A stretch of 64,000 nt of DNA from Batrachochytrium dendrobatidis JAM81 (taxonomy: Eukaryota > Chytridiomycota > Chytridiomycetes > Rhizophydiales). Under the pieces are notes generated by a model, which made no database searches, had not been told where the DNA came from, and saw nothing but the letters and a program-made list of their open reading frames with translations. Each line of letters begins with the position of its first letter. The stretch's first letter is position 1. The translations under genes and the position numbers were made by a program. Below are positions 38,068 through 59,080 of the stretch, piece by piece. Where the stretch lies: assembly GCF_000203795.2 (NCBI RefSeq), contig NW_006281110.1, forward strand, positions 622,590-686,589. The letters run 5' to 3'.

Positions 38068-41000
38068 CTACTCCAATCCAAGTATCACGCTTTGAAGCAC
38101 GTCGAGGATACTTGAATCGGGTTTACTGATTTGATCCACTTTGTTATCCTTGACTTTTCCAGAAGCAAGTTTTTGACCCTTGTGTTTTCTCTTGGTTTCA
38201 AACTCACTTTCTTCATCCTTGTTGTCATCATTGGTACAAACATACTCACGCGATTGTAGTTTGGCATCCAATTCAAGTTTATGTTCTGCCAGTCGCAAAA
38301 TATGCTGCTCGATAGAATTGTCCATAATCAATCGATGCACAGTGACAGCCCGTGTTTGTCCTACACGATGAGCTCGATCTTCAGCCTGTATTTCAACAGC
38401 CATTCAAAAAACAATCAGTATATGAAATTCAATCATCAAAAACTCAGCAGCCTAGACTCACTTGAGCGTCGTTATGTGGATTATAGTCGATATCATACAT
38501 GATGACTACATTCGCACTTGTTAAATTAATACCAACACCGCCGGATTTTGTCGTAAGAAGAAACACGGTAATCTCTGGATCATTGTTGAATTCATCCATC
38601 ATGCTTTGTCGAATTCCGACAGGTGTAGTTCCATCCAATCGAAGATACTTGATTCCCAGATGCTCCATGACTGGTTCAAGAATATCCAACATGATTACAA
38701 ATTGACTAAACACAAGTATTTTGTCACCCTATATCATTCAACATTTATATTGCATTAGTGGTGTATTCACACAGATGGAGTAAAATAATGCTTACTTGTG
38801 CTCGCATCTCCAGCAACATTGATTTAAGTTTAACAAGTTTACACGAATCCATGATGACCTTGTCTGATAATTTGTGTGGCATTAATGTCTACAATACATT
38901 GGAATAAAAGTACTTGTCAGCAAGTAAAGCATGGGTGACTTGGCAAGCGTATCCAATAAAAGTAATCGAGTCTTACTTTATACTTGAGACATAACTGATG
39001 GATTTCAAAATCAGACATAATACACATATCCTCCCAGATATACTCGACATTTTTATCACAATGTTCTGGCTCCTACACATTCATAAAAATCAATATCATA
39101 CTCTAAACCAGTTTATAAGGTATACTTACGCGCATAATTGCTTTGGCCATAATACGAAGCTTTGCATCTGTATATCGACTTCGTACAAGCAAAGGATGAT
39201 TGGCAACTTTGCGTAAATCCATCAACACGTTCGATAACTGACGATTGGCCAATGATGCTGTTTGATCGGAAGTCTCTGATTTAAGGGGTTTCTCTGCTTT
39301 ATCCGAGTCAGTAGTCAGTTTGGTCGTATGTGGCACGATAGTTTTTTCAGAAGCTGCAATAGCTTTTTTAGAGCACAAAAGAATATCCTAATATATGCAA
39401 CATTAGCAATAATTTCAATATTCAAAATTAAAGGCAAAACCGACATTTGCATACTTTATACAGCTGCAATTGCGATGAAACTGGAGTGCACACGTTCAGT
39501 ACTTTTGTTTTTGGTGGTAAATCACGTAAAACTTGGTCTTTTCGCCTACGAAGAACAAATGGTGTCATGATTTTCTTGGCTCGGTTAATACGCTCATGGC
39601 TAAGAGAGGACTCGTCCCCACCGCCCAAGGATTTGAATAAAAAGATGCGTTCAAGCGTTTTTTGGTCAGTAACAAACAATCGTGGCATAACAAATGTCAG
39701 TAAAGCCAATAGTTCAAGCAAATTGTTTTGAAGTGGTGTTCCTAATAACATGTGAAATTTGATTGGGATTTGTATGTCAGCATCAAAGCACATGATTACT
39801 CGAGTAGCCAAATGAAATTACCAGTAAGGAGCAAACGAAATGGTGCTGAAATTGCCATCAAATGCTTATATCTGTTACTTTCAATATTTTTAACCATGTC
39901 TGTGAAATCACAAGGTAATTAGTAAATAGTGTACTAATCAAGACACAGTAAAACCACTCACGTCCTTCATCCAGAATGAGCGACTTGATTCGGATTCTGC
40001 GTAAAAATGTACGGTCTTCTTTGGATCCAGTTGCCATACTGTATCTAATTTACTCAACATAAAGCCATTTAAAACCAAAGGCTAATCGACCAGGTTGTGT
40101 ACACATATCATTTATAAATACATACGTTGTGACAATCACATTGAGTTTGGAATTATTTGTAATGTCTTCTTGCAGCCATCGACGATCAGACAGAGATCCA
40201 GAATACGACGCTACACATAGTTTTGGACACCATCGATTCAATTCACGCACCCAGTTTTCTATTCAAATCTAAAGAGTTAAACAGAGAAATCATTGTCGGA
40301 AATAACACAGGCGTTGTAATTACCAAGTGTAGACGCAGGAACGACTATCAGATGCGGGCCTCGTTCACCCAAAGTGTACAAATGCGCCAAAAATGCAATC
40401 ACTTGAGCAGTTTTACCCAATCCCATTTCATCTGCCAAAATTCCTCCCAGTTGCTTCTGATACAGCATCATTAACCAACTCACACCGACAATTTGGTACT
40501 GCTTTAGCTGCAATGTAGAAGGAATAATTTTGGGTTGTTTGGTCAAGCATTTGAAACTAGTTGGGTCATTGAGATGTGTAGATGTGTTGGAGATTAAAGG
40601 AGTCAAGGTAAAACTATTCGGTTTACGTGTAGAATCGGGCAATTCTTTGGGTTTTTGAGTAGGAAAAAAGCTTTCATCCTCATCCTCATCGTCAATATCC
40701 AAAGCACCATCAGTTAAATCTTTTTTTGCAATGAAATGATCAGTTTTGTCCATGTGTGCCATGTCATCATCATGATCAGTCAAAGCACCGTCAACTGAAC
40801 TAGCATCCCCAGTATGGCTGTCAGTATCTTCTGATAACGCAGCAACTTGAGTCAGTGAAATTTCCCCGTTGGTTTCATCCATCAACGCGGTAGTTTCTAA
40901 GAAAGTTCCATCATTCTGTGAAGAGCTGATAGCTGCTGCATTTTGGATCCACCTGGTCATAATCTGTTTGATATCGTTTCCAACAGTCTCGCATCGTTTA

Positions 41001-43195
41001 ATTAACGAGTCGACTTCTTTAAACCCTTCCAAAAGATGTTCGTAGCGATCTACCAGTCGATACAGCTTGCGTTGTGCTTTGCATCCAGTAGAGCAAACTT
41101 CACGCAAATGGTCGCCAGAATGAAATGGACGCAAAGAAACAATCATTGAGGATGCTTCTGGCAAGCATTTGAGGGATTCTGTTATATGTTCGACTGTGGC
41201 TGAGTTGAAAAACTCGAGCACTTGTATCATGATGGCTGAATCTTGTTCAATATCATCCTCCATCTGAAAATCATGATCAAACTCGGTAGTTTCGTTTGCA
41301 TTCACATCGTCTTCATCAGCGATTGAAATAGGATCAGAGTCGTACTGAGAAATTGATTTTTTAGAATCTAAATGCGACTCTCCATACGCCACAATCTCAT
41401 CATCATCAGACAGAGTGATGGGAACGAGTGCTTTGGATTTACTAGTCACGGCTGTAGTAAATTTTGCAACTCCATTTATGGCACCAGTGGTAACTTTTTT
41501 CATGTCAGCGTTTAAAATATCATGATCGTCGTCATCATCGTCACATGGCAACGGATTCGTTTTATAAGCGCTGTGATTCAGAGAGGCATAACTAGGTTCC
41601 AAATCAATTTTTCGAACCAACTTTCGTCTTTTGACTCCACCTTTTTCTGCAATGGCTTGATCCGAAAAGTCATGGTTTGCTCTTAGCCATGCAGCAGCGT
41701 CTTTTATATCTCCATTTACAACATCGAGTGCTTTTTCTAATTCATCAGGGGTAGATTTTGGAAACAATGATGCAAGTTCTTCTATTTTGATGTTATGCGA
41801 CGATACTTTTTTTGTAGATTTGCCTTGATTTTTCCCAGAATATTTGAACATTGACAGTGAATTCTGAACCTGATTTGGATTGGACAAAGTAGACGCAGTG
41901 GGACGAGTATATTGAGCACTAGGGGTATCTGATATAACTGCATTTTTTTTCTCGGAATGCGTATTAATAAATGGCGACGTGTTTTTATAGAGAGAAGACG
42001 AGTTTAAAAGTGGATCCGATTTGCGTACTGGCTTGCTGCTGTATGCAAATGATTGTAGAGTGTTTGAAACGTGAACAGGGACACCAACAGGAGCCTTTCC
42101 AAACATAAAAGTGGAAATTGGTTTGTAAGAAGTGGGACGAGTAGCAAAAGTAGATTTGGCAGTTGAAGCGACAGAAACAGCAGGAAGTGTATGACTTTTT
42201 TTTATCGAATGATTTTTGGAGTTTTTAAGTAAAGGTGTGGTAGGAAGCTGTTGACGACAGTCAAATATGTTTTTAGTTTCATCATGGATTGGACTTGAAC
42301 AGTTGTACGTATCCGAATTGAGCCCAGACTTTGAATCGTTGCTAGCGTTACGTGTATCAGAACGAGGAACTTGAGATGACAAGGAAAATAGATTTGAAGA
42401 TTCAGAAAATGCTTGTAAAGATTGAAGAGGTCGAGCAGGATATTTAGACATCACAGATTCGGTGTGTGCGATAATTGGAGAACTTTGTTCGGACACCGAC
42501 ATGACAGCAGATGGAGAGCGTTTCGTGTGAGAGGAAAATGCATTGATTTGATTGACAGAATGATCGACAACATCGAATCTAGTAGTGCTGCTCTGAGAAG
42601 ATTGGCTCATGTCATCATCGACTCCTAATCTCATCTGAAGCGTTGAAACCAATTTGACTCCATTGTAGATCATCCTGTCTGTCTGTTCCTTTGGTGTGCA
42701 TGGAATCATATCAATACGATCCGAGACTGTCGATCCTGGTATTAATGGTGAGTCCGGAACTAAAACAGCAGCAGGATTGGCTGCATTGGTAGATCCAGTA
42801 GTTGACGGACTAGTTAAAGACCGACCCAGTCTGGAATGAGGTCTGGATTTTTTTGGGGTGAATAGAGACTGATGCAGTCTTTTATTATCACAACTATCAA
42901 GTATGCTAGACTCTGTTTTCAAAGCAGGATCTTTGTCAGATAGCTGCTCATTGGAACTATTAGACTGCTGTTTAGTTGCAACCAAAGACATTACTATAGA
43001 GTCCAAGTCACTTGCAGTAGTCGAATCACTACTCAAGAGCGGGACTGAAGACTCGGATGTTTTTGTAGAAAGAATACTAGATGGTTCTATATCCTGCAGT
43101 GAATTGATGTCTTGCTTTCGACAATTTAAGGCCATATTCATGTAAAGTCGAATATTTTTGTATTTAAATCGACCATTTGGTTGGAAATCGTTCAT
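38068..43195 (-). CDS. SNF2 chromatin remodeler, FUN30/SMARCAD1 family
   Basis: Ten exons: 40324-43195, 40126-40258, 39962-40038, 39822-39899, 39455-39741, 39130-39387, 38977-39072, 38796-38888, 38462-38728, 38068-38385; about 1492 residues. The first 850 residues are Ser-rich and low complexity, with a CUE-type ubiquitin-binding motif near 475-515 ([19 protein letters not shown]). The split SNF2 ATPase follows: [11 protein letters not shown] (Walker A), PASTLENWVREL spliced across an intron, DEGHMVKN (DExH box), [26 protein letters not shown] and [11 protein letters not shown] (motif VI). CUE plus this ATPase type defines FUN30/SMARCAD1, which acts in heterochromatin maintenance and DNA-end resection. 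All helicase motifs are intact. Confidence 0.92.
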
Positions 43196-43779
43196 GATTG
43201 AATATTCGTTGTTTTCGTATTAGATTATCAACTCTTTAGTATTTGATACTGTTTGACAAACTCATTCTTTATTACACTCAATCCATCAATAGGATTTATG
43301 AATCAACAATATAAAACTCTAATCATCGCGATATGTGTTGAATGGTTGATAAACCATATCTAATCACAGTTGCTTTATGAAATGGAATGTTGTCTGAAAT
43401 AAAGTGACCGTTTGGGAATGTTGCATGTCATTGTTTAAAAAGACTCGACAACTCTCTTGATCAATCTCCACAAATGCACTTGCAATGTCTCGGTTTTCAA
43501 GTGTTGATGATTACAAGTTGTCAAACCATCAATGATTTGATGTGTTTTCATGACAATATATTATACAAAATTTTGAAAAAGTAGAAATTCATAAAAGAAC
43601 ACTTGTTAAAATCACCAAAAACCATTTCTAAGCAATGATTCCAGTAAGACTGAAACCCATCAAACATGACTGATTATCTTGTATTTTAACTTGATGTTCC
43701 ACTTTACGTGAATATGCAAAAATTGTCGGGACAATATAAACCCAACTTGATCACCAGTTTTCAATAAACAAAACTCATT
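43196..43779. other. Intergenic region, FUN30-like / SLA2
   Basis: 584 bases between two minus-strand genes: promoter of the remodeler and 3' UTR of SLA2. The second copy of the dispersed element is at 43641-43725, 55-139 bases past the SLA2 stop. No gene seen. Confidence 0.5.
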
Positions 43780-46700
43780 TCATTCATCCTCATGATATCC
43801 TCGCTTACGCATCTCGCCCAACTGGTAACGAGCTGTTTGCAGATCCTTTTCCAATTCCAGAATTTTTACCTGCTGCTCCATCTCTCGCACTTTGGCTTCA
43901 TGCTTTCCTATCGTCTTTACATCCATTTGAGCCTTGGATTCTGCTGACAATTTAGCCGCCTCTTTGGCTGCTCTGACCAGCAACTTTGTTGCTTCGCGTA
44001 CTGCTTGAGCTGCTGCTTCTAGTCGGTCTTGCGTTTTACTATACGCAATGGCTTTGACTCGTGCTGCTGCCACAAGTTGTGTTGTCGCAACACCAACTTC
44101 TTGCGCTGCTACAACAAGTTGTTCCCACGATTTTGTGCCTTGAACTAACCCATCTGCCATTTCCACCAAATACGTTGTTGCCTGTGCTACAGCTTGTGCT
44201 GCTGAAATGAGTCCCTCTGTCCATTTGTTGTTCTTTTTGTAAAATGCTACTAGCGACGATGTGCCCTTTCCTTGTGCCACAATCTCTTGTTGGCTGGCTG
44301 TTGCACATCGGATAAGATTGGCAATTGCTGTAGTGATGGCCATGGCTGATTGAAGAATTGCCGAATGAACTTGAAGATCAGGTCCAGATTGTAATGCAAG
44401 AAGCTCTTGAAGACGGCGAGCAGCAGCCTCAATCGCTTGTGCTGCTTGTCCCATTTCTCTCTCAACTGCATCACCAAGATCGCCATCACCCAGCTTCCCG
44501 TCCAGTTTGGACCCAACACGTTTTTCCATGGATGGTCCTACACGTCCAACTTGTGCTTGGGTAGATCGCGACAACTCAACAATTCGCTCTGGTTGATGTT
44601 GAGGTGAAATTGCTCCCATTGCTGTAGACTTGACTTGGTTAAAAAAGTCAATCGTGGCATTTGCACCCATCCGTAGCATCTCGATCACTTCATCGGCTTC
44701 TTGGTCTTCGGGAGAATGACGCGCAACTCCTTTTCCGTTATACAACAGCTGCGACACAGACTGAGCCAGCATACTCGATGTACTGATAGCATCTTTTGGA
44801 TCACCACCGTTGACCAATCGAACAAAACTCACACAAAACTCGCCACAATTTTGCTGAGCTTTTTCTATCAATGTCAACACATATTCTGCAGTAGCAGACT
44901 GGTTTCCTTCATGCGCTGCACTTTCAAGCTCATACACAGACTCCATGACAGTGGTACTGCATGTTTGCAGTACATTGTCCATCATTTGATACAGTAACAT
45001 TCGGTGCTCATTGCGCAATTTTCCAATCTCATCGTCTCGTGTAAGAAGCCCTTGTTGACTTTGCTGCTGGTGTTGAGAAAGAACCAACAAGGCTTGATCC
45101 AACCCAGCCTGTAACACCGATACCTCTTCTTCATTGGCCATCTTGTTACGTTCAACCGTGACAAGAAGATCATCAAGCCTCTGGCGCATCTCTTCTGCTT
45201 CAAGCTGTTTAGCACGAATAATGTTTTCCAATTGAGTTTGTTCTGCAGTAAACCGGGCAACAAGGGACTGCACTTCAGCTCCTTTGGATAAGGATATGTC
45301 AGTAAGAGCAGCTTTATTTTCTTGGATTTCGCGGCGAAGACGAGAAATTTCCTCTTCGTACTGGACACGAATACGATCTGTATCGCCCTTGAGTCGGTTG
45401 CGCTCAATTACCACCTCGGTAAGTTCATTCGATTTTGCCTAAAGTATGCATCATATTTAAAGAATTATAGACGTCAAAACCAAAATCATAAAACCGTTTG
45501 TTGAGTAGAATCAACAATTGTTACAAGGCTCAATTTACAACCCTATTCACATAAGATGGAACACTAGAGTGTCGAAATACAATAAACAGCCAGTCTCGTA
45601 AAGTAATGAGTGCCAATTCATTGGACAACACTATCCTCTAGACTTTTTAGTTGATTGATCTTTTTCATGATAATTGCACAATACATGATTACCAAAAGAG
45701 GAAAAGAGATGGTTTGTGTTCATCAAAGTCAAAGTGTAGCAGAAACATACAACAAATATTCAATCATTGCTTATTCCAAAGCAAAGAATGATTGCAAAAT
45801 ACAAGGGTTTCATTTCATGTCAATACGATAGTAATATTACCTTTAGTTCAGCCTTGACCTTTTCGCTTTCACGACGAGCCTCATCAGTGATTTTTCCACC
45901 TGCATCTTTAAAAGTTTTAAATCTCTGAAGCAAATCTAGATGCTCTTTTCTCAACTGAGCATATAGCTTTGCCAAAGCCTCGTACTTTTGCTTCCACTGG
46001 GCATTTTCTTCGTTTAGTCTTTGAATGGTAGAATCTTTTCCAGATCCGGCAGTGTTTGTTAGATTCAACTGAGCAATTTGTTGCTCGAGCATGGCAACAC
46101 GCTGACTGTACTGATCAGCCATCTGACGATCTTGTATATGTTGATTTTTAAAGTACTCGAGTTGGGAATGAGCATCCAGCAGTCTGGACTGTTGCATCTG
46201 CTGCTCTTGTGCTTGCATCATTTGAACACGTAAACGTTCTTGTTCCTGTTGTTGTTGCTGCAAACGAAGCATCTCTTGCTGGCGTAAAAGCTCTTGCTGC
46301 TGCTGAAGCTCATTCTGTTGACGATGTTGAAGATCCAATGCATCTTGCTCTTCCTCCATCATTTTACGACGAAGTTCATCTTCTTGTTGCTGACGAAGAC
46401 GGGCTTCAGCAGCCTCGCGCTCGCGTTTAGCGGCATCATCATTGGAGTTTGTTTTTCGAGGCTGTTGAGTAGGTTTACCACTTGCAAGAAAATCGTGTGG
46501 TTCGTGGGATAGCTTGGGCACAGAGATTAAAGATGTGAGATACTTTAAACCAGAGCAGTCGTCGTAGAATTGAAGCAAACCGTAATGACTACGTTTGAAT
46601 TTATCCCTCAAAGGACCAAGAACTTCGACAGATCCAATAACTAAGCCATGTGTATAGTAGATAAAAATGGATTAGTCAAGACTAGTAGGACATTATGAAA

Positions 46701-47703
46701 TATCATTCAAAATCAACACACATACTTTGGTGCATTGCAGTCATCATGCTTAAAATAAATTGATAAATGCCAAAACTCTCTTCAACAAGCGGAACCAAGG
46801 CAGCAATACGGGCTTCATTTTGACCCATGGAACGCAAGTTTACAAATATTTGTTTTTGAAACATGTCAATCTGATCAAGAAGTCCGAGTAGCTCACTAAT
46901 GGTCTCGAATCTATAGTTGGATCATAAAAGATTGAAATGAGTCGAGAGTAGAACACTATAGAAAGGATTAAAACATACCCTTCATTGGGATCGTCGATTC
47001 CTCGGAGAGTGACATACTCTTCGTAGTCAAAATTACCACTGAATTCGGGATGAATTGAGTGAAACTGCAGCTTATTCTGTAGATATGATACATATCCAGA
47101 AATCAATGTGCCATAACCTTTATTGTAACCCAAACCAGGATAAGATTTGAATGAGTCAAAACAGAATTAAACAAGCAAAACATTCAAGATTACCTCTACT
47201 GTTGCCAGCAGACATGCGAGCAATTTGGTCTAGCCAACGATTTTCGTTGATGCCATCTTTCAATGCCTAGAAACGAATCAAGATTAAACAAGGATGAGCA
47301 TGCAGACAAATTAAACTTGATTATTAATACAGATTCATGAAGACTACAAGTCGACAACAGTCGACTTGTAATCCTTTATCCAGTGTACTCAAGGGTTCCA
47401 GGACAACATATACAGTTGATAATATACCATTGGATGACCCTGACGAATAACCTTGTGTATAGTAATAAGACACTTGAAAATAACTATCTCATCAGCCATC
47501 AGAGGATATGTCTTGACAGCAGTCCAGAAACTACCCGAACCTTTGACATCCCAAGTGTAGAGGATGCAAGCACGGACATGTTTTTGCTTGGGAGCAGACT
47601 CATCAATAGAAAGAGCCTTTTTAATAGCTACAGCCAGCTCTTCTTCTGCCTTTGGGTTGGCAGTATAATAACTAGAGCGACCCGACCCACTCATCTCTGT
47701 CAA
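43780..47703 (-). CDS. SLA2: Endocytic adaptor SLA2/END4 (HIP1R family)
   Basis: Six exons: 47428-47703, 47194-47266, 46979-47117, 46726-46910, 45841-46640, 43780-45438; about 1043 residues. It links clathrin-coated pits and PIP2 membranes to actin. The ANTH domain (about 10-280) shows AVAIKKALSIDESAPKQKHVR and later GINENRWLDQIARMSAG. A Gln-rich coiled coil spans about 320-650. The C-terminal I/LWEQ (talin-like THATCH) domain, about 800-1020, contains SWEQLVVAAQEVGVATTQL and repeated Ala-rich helices, and ends in a short coiled coil. A second Met at 47694 is an alternative start. Length matches fungal Sla2. It is divergent from the Pellino-like gene. Confidence 0.95.
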
Positions 47704-48438: not shown

Positions 48439-51400
48439 ATGAGCACTGCACTTCCATTCTCTTTTAAAAACGAAGATGCGGCTGAATACCAAGGGTTAAT
48501 GCGTCCGTCTTCTCCCGTTCTTAACCAACCCAATGCATCTCAAATCGCTTTGACAACTGCTTATATAAACCACAAAAAGCCATATCCAGATTCTACCATA
48601 CAATCTGTGACTATGATGGCAAATCATATTTCTAATCTCCGCCCATCACAACACGTCCTCACTCAAGATACACTGCAGTGGTCCACTCAGTCCAACCACC
48701 CCGCCATGGTTTCTCATGCTACATCTCCAAAAACTGCCGACTCGGTTCAGCCATGTCTCGATACAATAGACTCTAGCAGCTTTCGTGTACTGTGTGCTAA
48801 TACACCTACCAAGTCCTTGAATTCAGCATTGAATCCAACCGACTTCATACCTACTTTGAATCAACACCTTGAACTCGAGCAATGCACGCGAGAACTAAAC
48901 CAAGATAGTCTGAAAGTCATGGGTTGTAACACCTTTGTTGACTCTCAATCTACGTTGATGTTTCCTTGTTCCATCTCAAGGTAACCTTTTATGCATGCAC
49001 AAGTATCGTCAGACATGCTACACATTTGACCAAAAGGCTAATTTAACCTTTTGATGATGTGTCGTTGCAAATTCTTATGCACTCATGTTTTAATGCATCA
49101 GGTGGAAAAATCATCCGGCCCTGGGATTGAATTCAACTACAATAATGGACCAAGAATCGCAATCCAAATATCCTTCCGAATCACTCATGTCATTGTCAAA
49201 ACCAACAGCTACTGTAATAGACAATTGTAACTCGGCATTTACAATATCTATTGACGATGGTAGTGACGAAATCCTGCAAGCTAAACCAGGAACCTTACCT
49301 TTAAAATCTAATTGGCATTTAGGGTGTGTGGTGCCAAATTCAAGTGTGGTTACAGACCAATACCCACTCACACCAACTTCGATTGAACTGGAATCATCAC
49401 AAATTCCAGTTCCAAGTGACGCAGATGCACTTTCTTCTGAACAGGGCCAGTCTGCACTGATCCAGTCGGCACAAGAAACTTTAGAACCCAACACAACGCA
49501 ACCGCTATTGTGGCGATCATCAACCCTGACACCATCTGCTAGGGTAAAGAGTGAATCAAAAAAAAATCGCAAGTTTTGGACACGCTGTCGCAATACTAAT
49601 CCTACTCATTCCAACCATCTTGTCACTTTGCAGCCAGCATTCCTGTCTTCAAAAAACTTGGTTTCTTATGGAATGTTGATTGTGCTGGGTCCAACACGTA
49701 ATATAACCTCCAGTGACACAGCACCGCCTCAATCAGTAGTGACTCTTTCACCCAGAGATATACCCAATGGTATCATGATAGATTACACACTTCAACAAAC
49801 CCAGGCGCATACACAGCGCCGACATAGTACAACTACTGTGGAAAGCTCACATAAATTAGATTCACAACTGACTGAAAAAATAGGCAAGGCTGTTCGAGGC
49901 GCTGTAGATTTACTGTGTCGTCGTACAACTGTAACCTCACCTCCTGTCCGACCAGAATCAGATGAATCCACTCAACTCAAGTTTGTGGATGCATTCAAAC
50001 CAGTCGGGACTGTCTCGTTTGTTGGAAGTATAGATGTAAAGTACGATTGCTTTCCATCCACAACAACTGATATGTACCAATTTGGGTTAGACATGAATCA
50101 GTCTGGAGCCGACTTTGTTGTATGTGCTTCTCAGTTTTCACCAACAGGAACTACTAAACATACCGATAAAAAAAAGACGGCTGCTTTGAATTTACGAGGA
50201 ATACCGGCTGTACGCAAGGGATCAAGAAGTCGCACAAGTCGTCAAAGTGGGATGGTATCTTTGAGTACAAAACCAAGTATGGATAAAGTTGAAAAAGATA
50301 AAGAAGGGTTTCCCATGCGTATCGTGTGTTCAAGACAGGATCTTGCGGATGCTAGACTATACGCAGGCATGTTTGATTCAACCCGATCGATTGTCTGTAC
50401 TGATACAGCATTGATGTGGAGCGTTGCTTCACATACAACACAAACATCTCATTATGCATGCAAGCAGGAGGGTTCTGATTCCATTTATGATGCATTTCCA
50501 ACTGGTTCAAGTGTGCTTCTCTGGCGTCCAATTCGATCCAAAGAAGGGATAATTATTGGTGGCAAATGGATGGAAATATCCATCATGGGGAATGCATTTC
50601 AATTACGTTCCGATTCAAAAGTGCGTGGAGCACCCATGACTGTATCTGATTTCCCCGATATAAAAGATGCCACTACACAGCTCAACCAGCTAATTGACGG
50701 ATGCATCATTTATTGCGAATCGACATCATTTCTTTGGCGAAGTCCTCACACCACCACTCATGGATATACAAAAAAAGTGGATTTTACCGCTCTCACCACA
50801 AACGACATGCTCGACCAAGTCAAACAGTTTTCCAATGGGTTAGTATGTCCCATCACATTGGATTCCATTCCTACCTCACATATTGCTGTTCCAATCCGCG
50901 AACCATCTGTTATGCGGTACAATATATGGTGGTTGATACGTCGTATGCGATGGCTAGATCTTCTTCGCTGTCGCAACTTTAAGCGACAATCTATGATGGA
51001 TATAAGAGCTCGATCCACCCACTTGAACGAATCTTCGTTAGTGCTGGAAGGACAACCTTTTACGGCTGCGAAATGGGATGATGTCACTGACACATACATG
51101 AATCGGCCATGGTGTTTTTCTCAATGTGGTCATGTTTTTTCTTTATATGATCATACCATGATGCAGCCCAACTATACTTCTGCATGCTCAGTTTGCAGAA
51201 GTGAGGGTGGCTTTATGCCACTAACGCTTGGATTGATTCCAGGTATTGTTATGGGAAACATCACACATGCCATCTCACCCTGTGGGCACATGCTCGATAC
51301 CGAAATGGCATCACTGTGTACAGGACGAGCAGGTGTAAGATTTCCTTTCAAAGGAGACTCTATTCCACTTCATGATCGCTACACGAACGTGACTGTATTG

Positions 51401-51580
51401 GAAAGGGAAAATTGGATCGAGTCTGTCATGGACAATGTTGAAGGACTTTCTGAATCCATATATACACTATTGTCAGATCCAGCCCAACACACTTCCAATT
51501 GGACCCATCGTTGTCCCTTTTGCTTCTCGCACATCTCATCAGTATGTAAGCTTTATTTCCAAAACGACCCATGGGAGTAA
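48439..51580 (+). CDS. Pellino-like RING E3 ubiquitin ligase
   Basis: Two exons: 48439-48980 and 49102-51580; about 1006 residues. The first 360 residues are Ser/Thr-rich and unconserved. From about 367 the order is that of animal Pellino: LVSYGMLIVLG (start of the FHA-like phosphothreonine-binding region), GADFVVCASQF, MRIVCSRQDLADARLYAGMFD, GSSVLLWRP, KWMEISIMGNAFQLR and LIDGCIIYCESTSFLWRS. Then the Cys/His RING-like region follows (about 760-1000): CPITLDSIP, CFSQCGHVFSLYDH, CSVCRSEGGFMPL, SPCGHMLD and CPFCFSHI. Pellino proteins add Lys63/Lys48 ubiquitin downstream of Toll/IL-1 receptors in animals, machinery not expected here. Animal Pellinos are about 420 residues; this one has a long extra N-terminus and insertions in the FHA region. 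Poly(A) signal 51713-51718. Confidence 0.8.
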
Positions 51581-52036: not shown

Positions 52037-52578
52037 TTAGAGTCCTTGAGGATAACCAGCGAGTCCTTCAGTAGGGATAGCTTCAAAATCCATAGCAAAT
52101 GGCATTGTTCCGATTGTAGTGGTCATGGCACACGACCAAAGAGTACTTGTTTGAGTAGTAGTGACTGTCATGACGGGTGCTGAACACGACGTGGTTGAAG
52201 AAGATGCTGGGGTAGAAGCTGTGGGAGAAGGTTCAAGACACTGAGGTCTCATTTCTGCATTACATTGGAAATGAGAGTTGCATTGGGTCCGACAAATCAT
52301 ATCGTATGAGCATTGGAAAGCACGGCATTGTGGAGTGTCATTGGCCTGGCAGTTCACTTCAGTTTGAATCCAATTGGCTTGGCAAAGTGCAAGACAATTT
52401 GTGCATGCTAAACATTTAATTCATGGTCAATGATCATTTTTGTGTGGCGTTGTGACGACATTATCATTTTTTAGTAAATTATTAACTCACCTACGGGATC
52501 AGCTTGAGCAAGAGCGGGAGAAACGAGTGCCCATAATAGCATCATTGTAGGAAAAATCTTGGTAGCAGAAGAAAACAT
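52037..52578 (-). CDS. Small secreted cysteine-rich protein
   Basis: Two exons: 52491-52578 and 52037-52407; about 152 residues. The first exon encodes a clear signal peptide (IFPTMMLLWALVSPALA, cleavage near residue 24). The mature half holds about ten cysteines in a CTNC...CQAN...CRAFQC...CRTQC...C pattern, followed by a Pro/Ser/Thr-rich stretch suited to O-glycosylation and a hydrophobic-leaning C-terminus. I do not recognise the family. It looks like a small extracellular or wall-associated protein; an effector role would be speculation. The donor chosen is GTGAGT at 52490, which restores frame with the CATGC acceptor. Confidence 0.7.
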
Positions 52579-56071: not shown

Positions 56072-56506
56072 ATTGTTAGTACTAGGTTTGTGTTACCTGA
56101 ATGACGATGGGGCGTGATGGTCATGTGAAGAGTAAGCGATATGATTGGCTGCAGATTCCGAATCAGCCGAATTAAAATGCAAGTCAGATTTGATATCAAT
56201 ATTTGATGAAGTTTTAGTAAGTTTTGAATACAAGACATTACTATTCAAGACACAATCAAGTCAAGTCAATATCTTGTATTTCAACTATCGATTGTCAAAA
56301 CTATCTTTTCGGAACAGCGTTTAGCAATGAGTGGACGCGTTGTTCCGATCCGAAGTTTTTTAGAATTTAAAAAGTTATAAACGACTATTTCTACTATTCA
56401 ACAAGTGGTTTAATTGTTAAAGTAAGTCGAATGTAATAGTCTAGTTTTATTAATTCAATGAATTGATTATATTGTATTAATGCGATTGAGTTTATTTTAG
56501 CTGACA
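56072..56506. other. Intergenic region, TMA46 to methionine synthase reductase
   Basis: 435 AT-rich bases containing the 3' UTR of TMA46 and promoter of the next gene. No TATA box or repeat assigned. Confidence 0.35.
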
Positions 56507-59080
56507 TTGCATTTGAAATTCATTCACATTCCAATGACTCAAGAATTGATACCACAAGACTCCAACACAAGTACCAACAGCATCGACTCTTTTATTAACA
56601 ACAGCGATCATTTGTATTGCAGTCCAACACCTTCTTCACATCGCATGTTCCTATACGGAGCAAATCCTGACATTCGCATTCTGAACCCGTCTTTGAATTC
56701 AACTAATAATCACTACAAACCAAAGGCTCGTACTGCTCAACCATCTGATACTGCCAAGGCATTTCGTATCATTGACAATCTTCTTCTATCGCTTGCTCCA
56801 ACAAACTATAGCATTGAGAATAGACTTCGAGCTTCTTGGAATTTAGCAATGGTTAAAGCTACTCCACGACCTACTTCTATTGACAGAGTGGTTCACTCGG
56901 TCTCATCCATGTCATTGGGCATTGACAGTATTGTCGTCATTTATGCTTCTCAAACTGGTACTGCAGAGGCCATTGCTCGACATATTCATGGAGAAGCCCT
57001 TTTAAGAGGGTTTCAGTCGTATTGTTTCCAAGCAAATGATGTCAATCGTATTCCTTGGCTTGAAAACAACATGCTTGTCTTTGTATCTTCCACTACAGGT
57101 GATGGTCATCATCCAGACAATTCAAACTTACTCTGGAAATGGTTGCGTCCTGGAAGCACTCCTAATCCTGCTACTGTCTTGGCTGGAAAACCTTATACTA
57201 TTCTTGGGCTGGGTGACTCAAACTATACCAATTTCTGCACACCTGCAAAACGACTGGATCGCAGATTGATTCAATTGGGTGCAAAATCAGTTTTAGCTAA
57301 AGCGCTCGCTGATGCTTCGGTCGGCATCGAGTCTGTTGTTGATCCTTGGATCGAAAACTTGTGGTTGGTTCTCAACTCCATATTAACGCGCGACCATCTC
57401 AAGGCTGCTGCTTTCGCCAAATTGCTTGTCAATCAGGCTGGCTCAAGTGTGGATTTAAACAAGGATTTTGCTTCCAATGATATCACTACTTCCAATGCAC
57501 GCACCCAATCGGGTCGTCCTCGATCTTTTGTTCGCTTAGCTCGTCAATCCTTTGCTGCATCTACTGCTCAGTTGGCAGCTACTTCTAATCAAAACGATGT
57601 GCATGATTCTGTCAAGGCTAATCTAGTCAATCCAAATGACTGTTATTCTGGAAGACCTATGCATCTTAGCCACATGGATGTTCTTGCTTCTTCCTCTAAA
57701 CTTACTGGTCTTGCCAAGGCTCCTGTCCAGCTGGTGGACTTGCTTGCATCAGAAAATACTCGTGATTATTTAATGCCCATCAATCAGCTCCTTCCTTGTC
57801 TCGATCAGCCTCCATCTCACAATGCTCCACTCATGGCCAAAATATCCAATGTACGGTGTCTAACTGGTCAAATTGCTACTGACAGGGTACTTGAAATTGA
57901 ATTGGATTTAACGGGTTTGAATTGGAACTATGCTGCAGGCGATGCATTCGGAATACTTGCTCCCAATCCTTCAGATTTAGTACAACGGCTTATTGAACGA
58001 TTGAATCTAGGTTCTGGCAATCAGATTGTTGAGCTTTCTCCTAAACAGAAATCGGATCTTCCATTTACCACTGCAACACCACCAACTTATACCGAAATCC
58101 TCACTTATTTTATTGAATTGCATGCGCTTCCAAAAAAATCATTTTTCCGGCTACTAGCAGAATACACGACCAATGTAGATGAAAAGAAACAGCTATTGTT
58201 TTTGTGCAGCACACAGGGATCTGAATCTTTCAAGAATCTTCGAGCTCAGCAGCCCAACATTTTGGATATTCTTTCCACCTTTAAATCATGCAGTCCTCCG
58301 TTTAGCATCTTGATTGACTGTTTGGGCTGTCTACAGCCTAGGTTTTACTCGGCGGCAAGCTCTCCGATTGAGCGTGCTCGCATTCGGTTTGCCTTTAATG
58401 TTGTTTCATATGGTGTCAACGATCCTTGCACTAATACACCAAAACCTATGCGTGGATTATGCTCTTCTTGGCTTGACAGTCTTACTGGATATACCACTTG
58501 TCGTTCATGGGTGGATGTGTCCATGAATGATGTTTATATTCCAATCTTTCCCCGTGTAGCAGCAAGTGCGTTTCACCTGCCAAAAGACATACAACACTCT
58601 CCGATCCCACTGATTCTTATTGCCTCTGGAACGGGCATATCACCCTTTATTTCATTCCTTGAATCTCTCGCCGAGGCAAAACGACTTCATCCAACTGCAT
58701 ACACTCCACGACCTGTATGGCTTATTCACGGACACAGATTCGATGGCGATGAGGGTGACAGTCTTTACCATTCTGAAATTCAGTCGTATATTTCCTGTGG
58801 CATTGTAACCGAGTTTGTCGAGTGTGTATCGCGGGGAGAGCATCCGTCTATCCATTCCTATGTGCAGGACGCTGTATGGGCAAATCGAAAGTCTATATGG
58901 GAACTGGTTGATGCTCACAATGCATGTCTGTACATTTGTGGATCCTTGGCTATGGGAAAGGGTATACATGACATGTTGATAAAAGTCATTATGGATTTGA
59001 AAAATGTTGGTAGTGTCGAAGCAGTACGAGTTCTCAATGAGCTAAGCGATGGTCGCTACTTGCGTGAAGTTTGGGGATAA
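56507..59080 (+). CDS. Methionine synthase reductase-like diflavin reductase
   Basis: One uninterrupted frame of 857 residues, unusual among these intron-rich genes; a second Met at 56534 is an alternative start. It is a CPR-type diflavin enzyme. Flavodoxin/FMN domain at about 145-290: IYASQTGTAEAIA, SSTTGDGHHPDN, LGLGDSNYTNFC, then SVGIESVVDPWIENLW. FAD domain with connecting segment: WNYAAGDAFGILAPN and PRFYSAASSP. NADPH domain: LIASGTGISPFISFLE and CLYICGSLAMGKG; it ends GRYLREVWG. The YTNFC segment, the long linker after the FMN domain and the short C-terminus favour methionine synthase reductase (EC 1.16.1.8), which reactivates cobalamin-dependent methionine synthase, over P450 reductase or sulfite reductase. 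No membrane anchor is present. The first 130 residues have no recognised counterpart. Confidence 0.82.
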   Translation: MHLKFIHIPMTQELIPQDSNTSTNSIDSFINNSDHLYCSPTPSSHRMFLYGANPDIRILNPSLNSTNNHYKPKARTAQPSDTAKAFRIIDNLLLSLAPTNYSIENRLRASWNLAMVKATPRPTSIDRVVHSVSSMSLGIDSIVVIYASQTGTAEAIARHIHGEALLRGFQSYCFQANDVNRIPWLENNMLVFVSSTTGDGHHPDNSNLLWKWLRPGSTPNPATVLAGKPYTILGLGDSNYTNFCTPAKRLDRRLIQLGAKSVLAKALADASVGIESVVDPWIENLWLVLNSILTRDHLKAAAFAKLLVNQAGSSVDLNKDFASNDITTSNARTQSGRPRSFVRLARQSFAASTAQLAATSNQNDVHDSVKANLVNPNDCYSGRPMHLSHMDVLASSSKLTGLAKAPVQLVDLLASENTRDYLMPINQLLPCLDQPPSHNAPLMAKISNVRCLTGQIATDRVLEIELDLTGLNWNYAAGDAFGILAPNPSDLVQRLIERLNLGSGNQIVELSPKQKSDLPFTTATPPTYTEILTYFIELHALPKKSFFRLLAEYTTNVDEKKQLLFLCSTQGSESFKNLRAQQPNILDILSTFKSCSPPFSILIDCLGCLQPRFYSAASSPIERARIRFAFNVVSYGVNDPCTNTPKPMRGLCSSWLDSLTGYTTCRSWVDVSMNDVYIPIFPRVAASAFHLPKDIQHSPIPLILIASGTGISPFISFLESLAEAKRLHPTAYTPRPVWLIHGHRFDGDEGDSLYHSEIQSYISCGIVTEFVECVSRGEHPSIHSYVQDAVWANRKSIWELVDAHNACLYICGSLAMGKGIHDMLIKVIMDLKNVGSVEAVRVLNELSDGRYLREVWG

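Follow-up and report, generated by a model that had tools for sequence, protein, structure and literature searches.

The DNA analysed here, a 64,000-nucleotide window from the chytrid fungus Batrachochytrium dendrobatidis JAM81 (contig NW_006281110.1, positions 622,590 to 686,589 of the forward strand), contains a two-exon gene at 48439–51580 (+) that encodes a 1006-residue protein with the domain order of the Pellino E3 ubiquitin ligases. These coordinates, taken over from a preliminary description of the sequence, correspond exactly to the gene from the ATG at 48439 to the stop codon at 51578–51580. Exon 1 (48439–48980) encodes the N-terminal tail and is separated by a 121-base GT-AG intron (48981–49101) from exon 2 (49102–51580), which lies in an 828-codon stop-free frame, carries the FHA and RING-like domains and ends in the stop codon. 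The spliced length equals that of an NCBI protein of 1006 residues (P0001, listed at 100% identity), from which our translation differs at only two of 1006 positions (528 and 918). The name Pellino is already attached to that record, "E3 ubiquitin-protein ligase pellino 1 [Batrachochytrium dendrobatidis]".

Profile matches, domain order, zinc ligands and the FHA fold support the protein as a true member of the Pellino family. The Pfam profile Pellino_FHA (PF04710) matches residues 499–738 with 55.4 bits (cut-off 25; E = 6.8e-15) and Pellino_RING (PF20723) matches residues 846–914 with 41.8 bits (cut-off 22.6; E = 1.3e-10), bearing out the Pellino identity first proposed from the translation. 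The order of motifs read there is confirmed as well, with YGMLIVLG from residue 370, the FHA segments, and CGH and CxxC motifs at residues 856, 876, 908 and 985. PDB sequence searches gave three matches at E values up to 1, all of them FHA domains of Pellino1 or Pellino2. The FHA domain with its putative wing spans residues 368–744 (49661–50791), and its predicted structure (FHA-only model, mean pLDDT 61.5) matches the Pellino FHA fold of 3ega, 3egb and 9if9, including that of Pellino2. The inserts that would form the wing lie in the expected places in the alignment and the superposed stretch is longer than an ordinary FHA domain, the inserts themselves being modelled at low confidence. Together, the Pfam, PDB sequence and fold matches rule out a chance resemblance of motifs. 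Searches of the B. dendrobatidis genome, which covered an assembly of 23.5 Mb in 33 contigs, found a single Pellino copy: PF04710, PF20723 and the related protein P0003 each return this gene only, and 11 stretches match the ordinary FHA family. Compared with animal Pellino1, Pellino2 and Pellino3 (PF04710 plus PF20723; PDB 9if9, 3ega and 3egb), the chytrid protein shares the FHA-then-RING-like order, the YGxLIVLG opening, the FHA fold and the CHC2CHC2 ligands; it differs in being about twice as long, in its identity of only about 28% in aligned columns, and in lacking Arg106, Arg138 and, at its column, Asn188.

When distances from motif to motif are compared with those of a fish Pellino (P0013), the extra length amounts to 337 residues before the YGxL motif, 53, 41, 16 and 9 residues (about 120) inside the FHA part, 8 residues in the linker, and 57 and 49 residues in two RING-like loops (together about 106), in agreement with the earlier estimate of about twice the animal length and with the FHA insertions then noted. 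The N-terminal tail, of about 367 residues, had been called Ser/Thr-rich; it is mildly enriched (24% versus 20% for the remainder), not strongly so. Comparing the tails of the chytrid-type proteins with one another showed no convincing similarity (best E = 0.9).

Protein searches identified three non-animal relatives: P0002, P0003 (Entophlyctis helioformis, BC831DRAFT_517570) and P0041 (Phlyctochytrium planicorne, HDU97_008190), the latter two with both Pellino domains. The three named fungi with a Pellino fall in the Rhizophydiales and Chytridiales (NCBI). Among the 40 proteins listed by the widest search, P0003 and P0041 are fungal, 37 carry animal names and the last is P0024; this search scored the 7996 candidates sharing most words, and the taxonomic range is thus a lower bound. 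We counted P0024 as animal, since it groups with fish rows, and P0002 as chytrid, since it groups there. Of the resulting 38 animal-type proteins (P0004–P0042 without P0041), 12 were used in alignment A5 (16 sequences), 36 in A6 (without P0005 and P0040) and 28 in A7, mammalian rows being omitted from A5 and A7.

The RING-like part extends over residues 763–988 (50846–51523) and comprises a leading Cys763, CGH at 856–858, CxxC at 876–879, CGH at 908–910 and CxxC at 985–988. In the alignment, all eight ligands of the CHC2CHC2 pattern are present, the arrangement given for Pellino in PMC4484250. The leading Cys and the CGH, CxxC, CGH and CxxC ligands occur in 15 of the 16 rows of A5, the exception being P0002, an ENA sequence that has a chytrid-type Pellino FHA domain behind a long N-terminal tail and breaks off where the RING-like part has its first CG. 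From its domain order and complete ligands, the Batrachochytrium protein should be a ubiquitin ligase. For animal Pellinos, PMC5908787 names K63 chains as the product.

The phosphothreonine pocket of the FHA domain has changed. Five Pellino2 residues, Arg106, Ser137, Arg138, Thr187 and Asn188, are described as essential for phosphothreonine binding in PMC4484250; for PELI1, PMC11884936 lists phosphate contacts by Arg104, Ser135 and Arg136 and reports, citing Huoh and Ferguson 2014, that an IRAK1 phosphopeptide was no longer bound once Arg104 was replaced by Ala. We used the fish protein P0011, which carries all five letters at exactly the Pellino2 numbers, as the ruler for these columns. Among the 36 animal-type rows of A6, Arg106, Arg138, Thr187 and Asn188 are present in all and Ser137 in 35. 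In the Batrachochytrium protein, the Arg106 column is occupied by Leu510 (50087–50089) in all three alignments (A5, A6 and A7), and because the P0001 record has the same Leu, an error in one assembly is unlikely. The Ser137-Arg138 pair is replaced by residues 569–583 (50264–50308), where the alignment is unsure and the Arg138 column holds Ser, Gly or Met across the three alignments, never Arg. At residues 648–650 (Thr-Gly-Ser; 50501–50509), Thr648 corresponds to the conserved Thr187, and Ser650, following Gly649, occupies the column of Asn188. One further stretch upstream, QLTEKIGKAVRGAVDLLC, was considered as the strand with the phosphate-binding Arg on the basis of a phmmer match of 1.6 bits, and was rejected, as Pfam and the animal alignments use TDMYQFGL instead. 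The earlier suggestion that this ligase reads phosphothreonine is thus not supported for the Batrachochytrium copy: with Arg106, Arg138 and probably Asn188 gone, such a role is doubtful.

Judging from the alignments, the other chytrid-type rows retain more of the pocket. At the Arg106, Ser137, Arg138, Thr187 and Asn188 columns, P0041 has Arg, Ser, Arg, Gly and Asn, and P0003, which also retains Arg106, has Arg, Ala, Val, Asn and Ser. P0002 has Arg, Asp, Gln and Thr at the first four; its segment DAFTTNSG, one residue longer than in animals, places an Asn immediately ahead of the fifth column. The retention of Arg, Ser, Arg and Asn in the saprotroph P. planicorne suggests that the ancestral chytrid Pellino probably read phosphothreonine. 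We take the pocket residues as a mark of phosphothreonine function rather than of membership in the Pellino family.

Pellino is known mainly from animal innate immunity; its part in Toll/IL-1 receptor signalling is a role and does not define the family. An exon-wise search found no TIR domain in the B. dendrobatidis genome at E = 0.001, with the control matching in 1 of 14 genomes; Death and RHD families were likewise without a match, and since their controls were silent too, this is not evidence of absence. The PK_Tyr_Ser-Thr family, which takes in many protein kinases, matches 158 stretches of the genome. The best of these (L004:1501–2253; C2:370033–370785 of the genome) has the motif HGDLKANN, and tyrosine kinases make up most of its best PDB sequence matches (a chain labelled EGFR at 2.6e-48 and a Src-Abl ancestor), with TNNI3K also among them. 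This motif is typical of TKL kinases, the group to which IRAK belongs. These matches establish no more than the presence of kinases of this broad type in the genome. Pellino has also been described in settings other than Toll signalling. According to PMC4484250, flatworms have retained Pellino although they have no Toll pathway, and human IRAK1, tested in human cells, is bound and ubiquitinated by the protein from Schistosoma; according to PMC11884936, phosphorylated MDC1 recruits PELI1 to DNA breaks. Schistosoma and other flatworm Pellinos resemble the chytrid protein in belonging to an organism without the pathway, and differ in keeping all five phosphothreonine residues and in being about 40% identical to human (both from PMC4484250). 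RNF8 shares the plan of an FHA-guided ubiquitin ligase (FHA plus RING; PMC11884936), whereas its FHA domain is an ordinary one without a wing, and it is absent from the sequence matches and the fold matches shown.

We consider it likely that the gene encodes a real chytrid E3 ligase of the Pellino family that acts outside Toll signalling, and that the FHA domain of the Batrachochytrium protein recruits its substrate by means other than the classic phosphothreonine pocket. The FHA end would hold the substrates and the RING-like end would transfer ubiquitin to them from an E2, as part of some signalling or stress pathway inside the cell that has nothing to do with Toll receptors. With Arg106 and Arg138 lost, and probably Asn188 as well, the FHA domain would no longer hold its substrate by the classic pocket, and docking would occur through a different face of the domain, the extended N-terminal tail or a contact that does not depend on phosphate. 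Several points weigh against this reading. Ligase activity and any substrate are predicted from the sequence. The RING-like fold is not confidently modelled (mean pLDDT 46.7 for the 639-residue core model of the FHA and RING-like parts), the RING-type fold matches of that model (RNF4, TRIM21 and APC/C) had E values of 0.2 or worse and were not used, and the RING profile is matched over positions 28–99 of 144 only. In the pocket, the Ser137-Arg138 stretch differs by alignment (Pro-Ser, Glu-Gly or Ser-Met), such that Ser137 could be kept, and another Arg could stand in for Leu510.

These last points bear on the alternative that the protein is a working phosphothreonine reader like the animal Pellinos, its pocket rebuilt with other residues, which attaches ubiquitin to phosphorylated signalling or DNA-damage proteins. 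The FHA fold and Thr648 are kept, and P0041, with its Arg, Ser, Arg and Asn, indicates that the lineage probably once had the pocket; moreover, PELI1 reads ATM-made pThr-Gln-X-Phe sites in MDC1, for which no Toll receptor is needed (PMC11884936). Nevertheless, the Arg that is invariant in the 36 animal-type rows is Leu here, and in PELI1 the Arg104 to Ala change abolished peptide binding (PMC11884936). We therefore regard a rebuilt pocket as unlikely.

Lateral transfer of the gene from an animal into chytrids is, in our view, rather improbable. All other named matches listed are animals, with none found between animals and chytrids, and no Pellino from a choanoflagellate, filasterean or other outgroup was among the matches listed from searches limited to shared-word candidates. 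Batrachochytrium lives on amphibians, a point in favour of transfer. As the protein searches scored a capped set of candidates chosen by shared words, these gaps in range are weak evidence. Over columns occupied in 14 or more of the 16 rows, identity is 27–41% among the four non-animal rows (six pairs) and averages 27–29% between each of them and the 12 animal-type rows, compared with a mean of 64% between the hemichordate and the other 11 animal-type rows. Identities this low argue against a recent transfer and would make any transfer very old. A quick maximum-likelihood tree of 35 of the 40 rows of A6 (P0017, P0018, P0021, P0039 and P0042 were dropped as short or low-scoring) is unrooted and places the four chytrid-type rows on one side as a single group with an SH-aLRT of 99, their long branches being flagged. 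The fork at which they meet the animals is unresolved and also includes the hemichordate and the Pellino2-type vertebrate rows, a topology that, taken alone, is compatible with an origin inside animals. The data fit both vertical descent from an ancestor shared with animals, followed by losses, and a transfer of great age; the "ancestral" origin put forward in the preliminary description is one plausible reading. We tentatively suggest, as one possibility, that Pellino was a phosphothreonine-guided ligase in the animal-fungal ancestor, long before Toll, and was kept in chytrids, and that in the Batrachochytrium lineage its FHA domain may have become a docking module that needs no phosphate, with the ligase end preserved.

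A decaying gene without function, to which the drifted pocket residues might point, is highly improbable given the 828-codon stop-free frame of exon 2, the complete zinc ligands, the intact splice junction and a second record that holds the same full-length protein with 2 of 1006 residues changed. Animal contamination was rejected, since the gene is interrupted by an intron, has neighbouring genes on a contig 686 kb or more in length, is present in a second B. dendrobatidis record and has relatives in other chytrids. A viral or prokaryotic source was also rejected: pattern scans gave 68 matches in viral_contigs and 36 in genome_contigs, with none confirmed in either, and no confirmed relative turned up in phages. 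Viral Pellinos are mentioned in PMC4484250, and the viral scan is accordingly not sensitive to all of them.

On one side the gene is flanked by an ANTH/I-LWEQ gene and an SNF2 gene, and on the other by a gene of diflavin-reductase type. At 43783–47703 (−), adjacent open frames carry ANTH and I/LWEQ domains and jointly resemble an endocytic actin adaptor of the Sla2/HIP1 type. An open frame at 40280–43219 (−) has at its end a match to the beginning of an SNF2-related domain and probably belongs to a chromatin remodeller gene interrupted by introns. Directly downstream of the Pellino gene lies a Cys-rich open frame of 127 residues (52040–52420, −) with no Pfam match. Further on, a long frame at 56501–59077 (+) has the flavodoxin, FAD- and NAD-binding domains of a diflavin reductase, perhaps Tah18-like.

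Among the papers listed, none deals with a fungal Pellino in its title or the start of its abstract, and published work may have been missed; the one paper found to mention both Pellino and chytrids (PMC9608074) concerns plant varicosaviruses. As far as this literature goes, the altered pocket of the Batrachochytrium protein and the graded state of the pocket among chytrids are undescribed. Work on Pellinos has centred on innate immunity in animals. With a branch of the family in chytrids, in a genome that gave no TIR match, the role of Pellino without Toll would become testable in fungi. Moreover, P. planicorne, in which the pocket is largely kept, and Batrachochytrium, in which it is altered, would offer a natural comparison of phosphate-dependent and phosphate-independent targeting within one ligase family.
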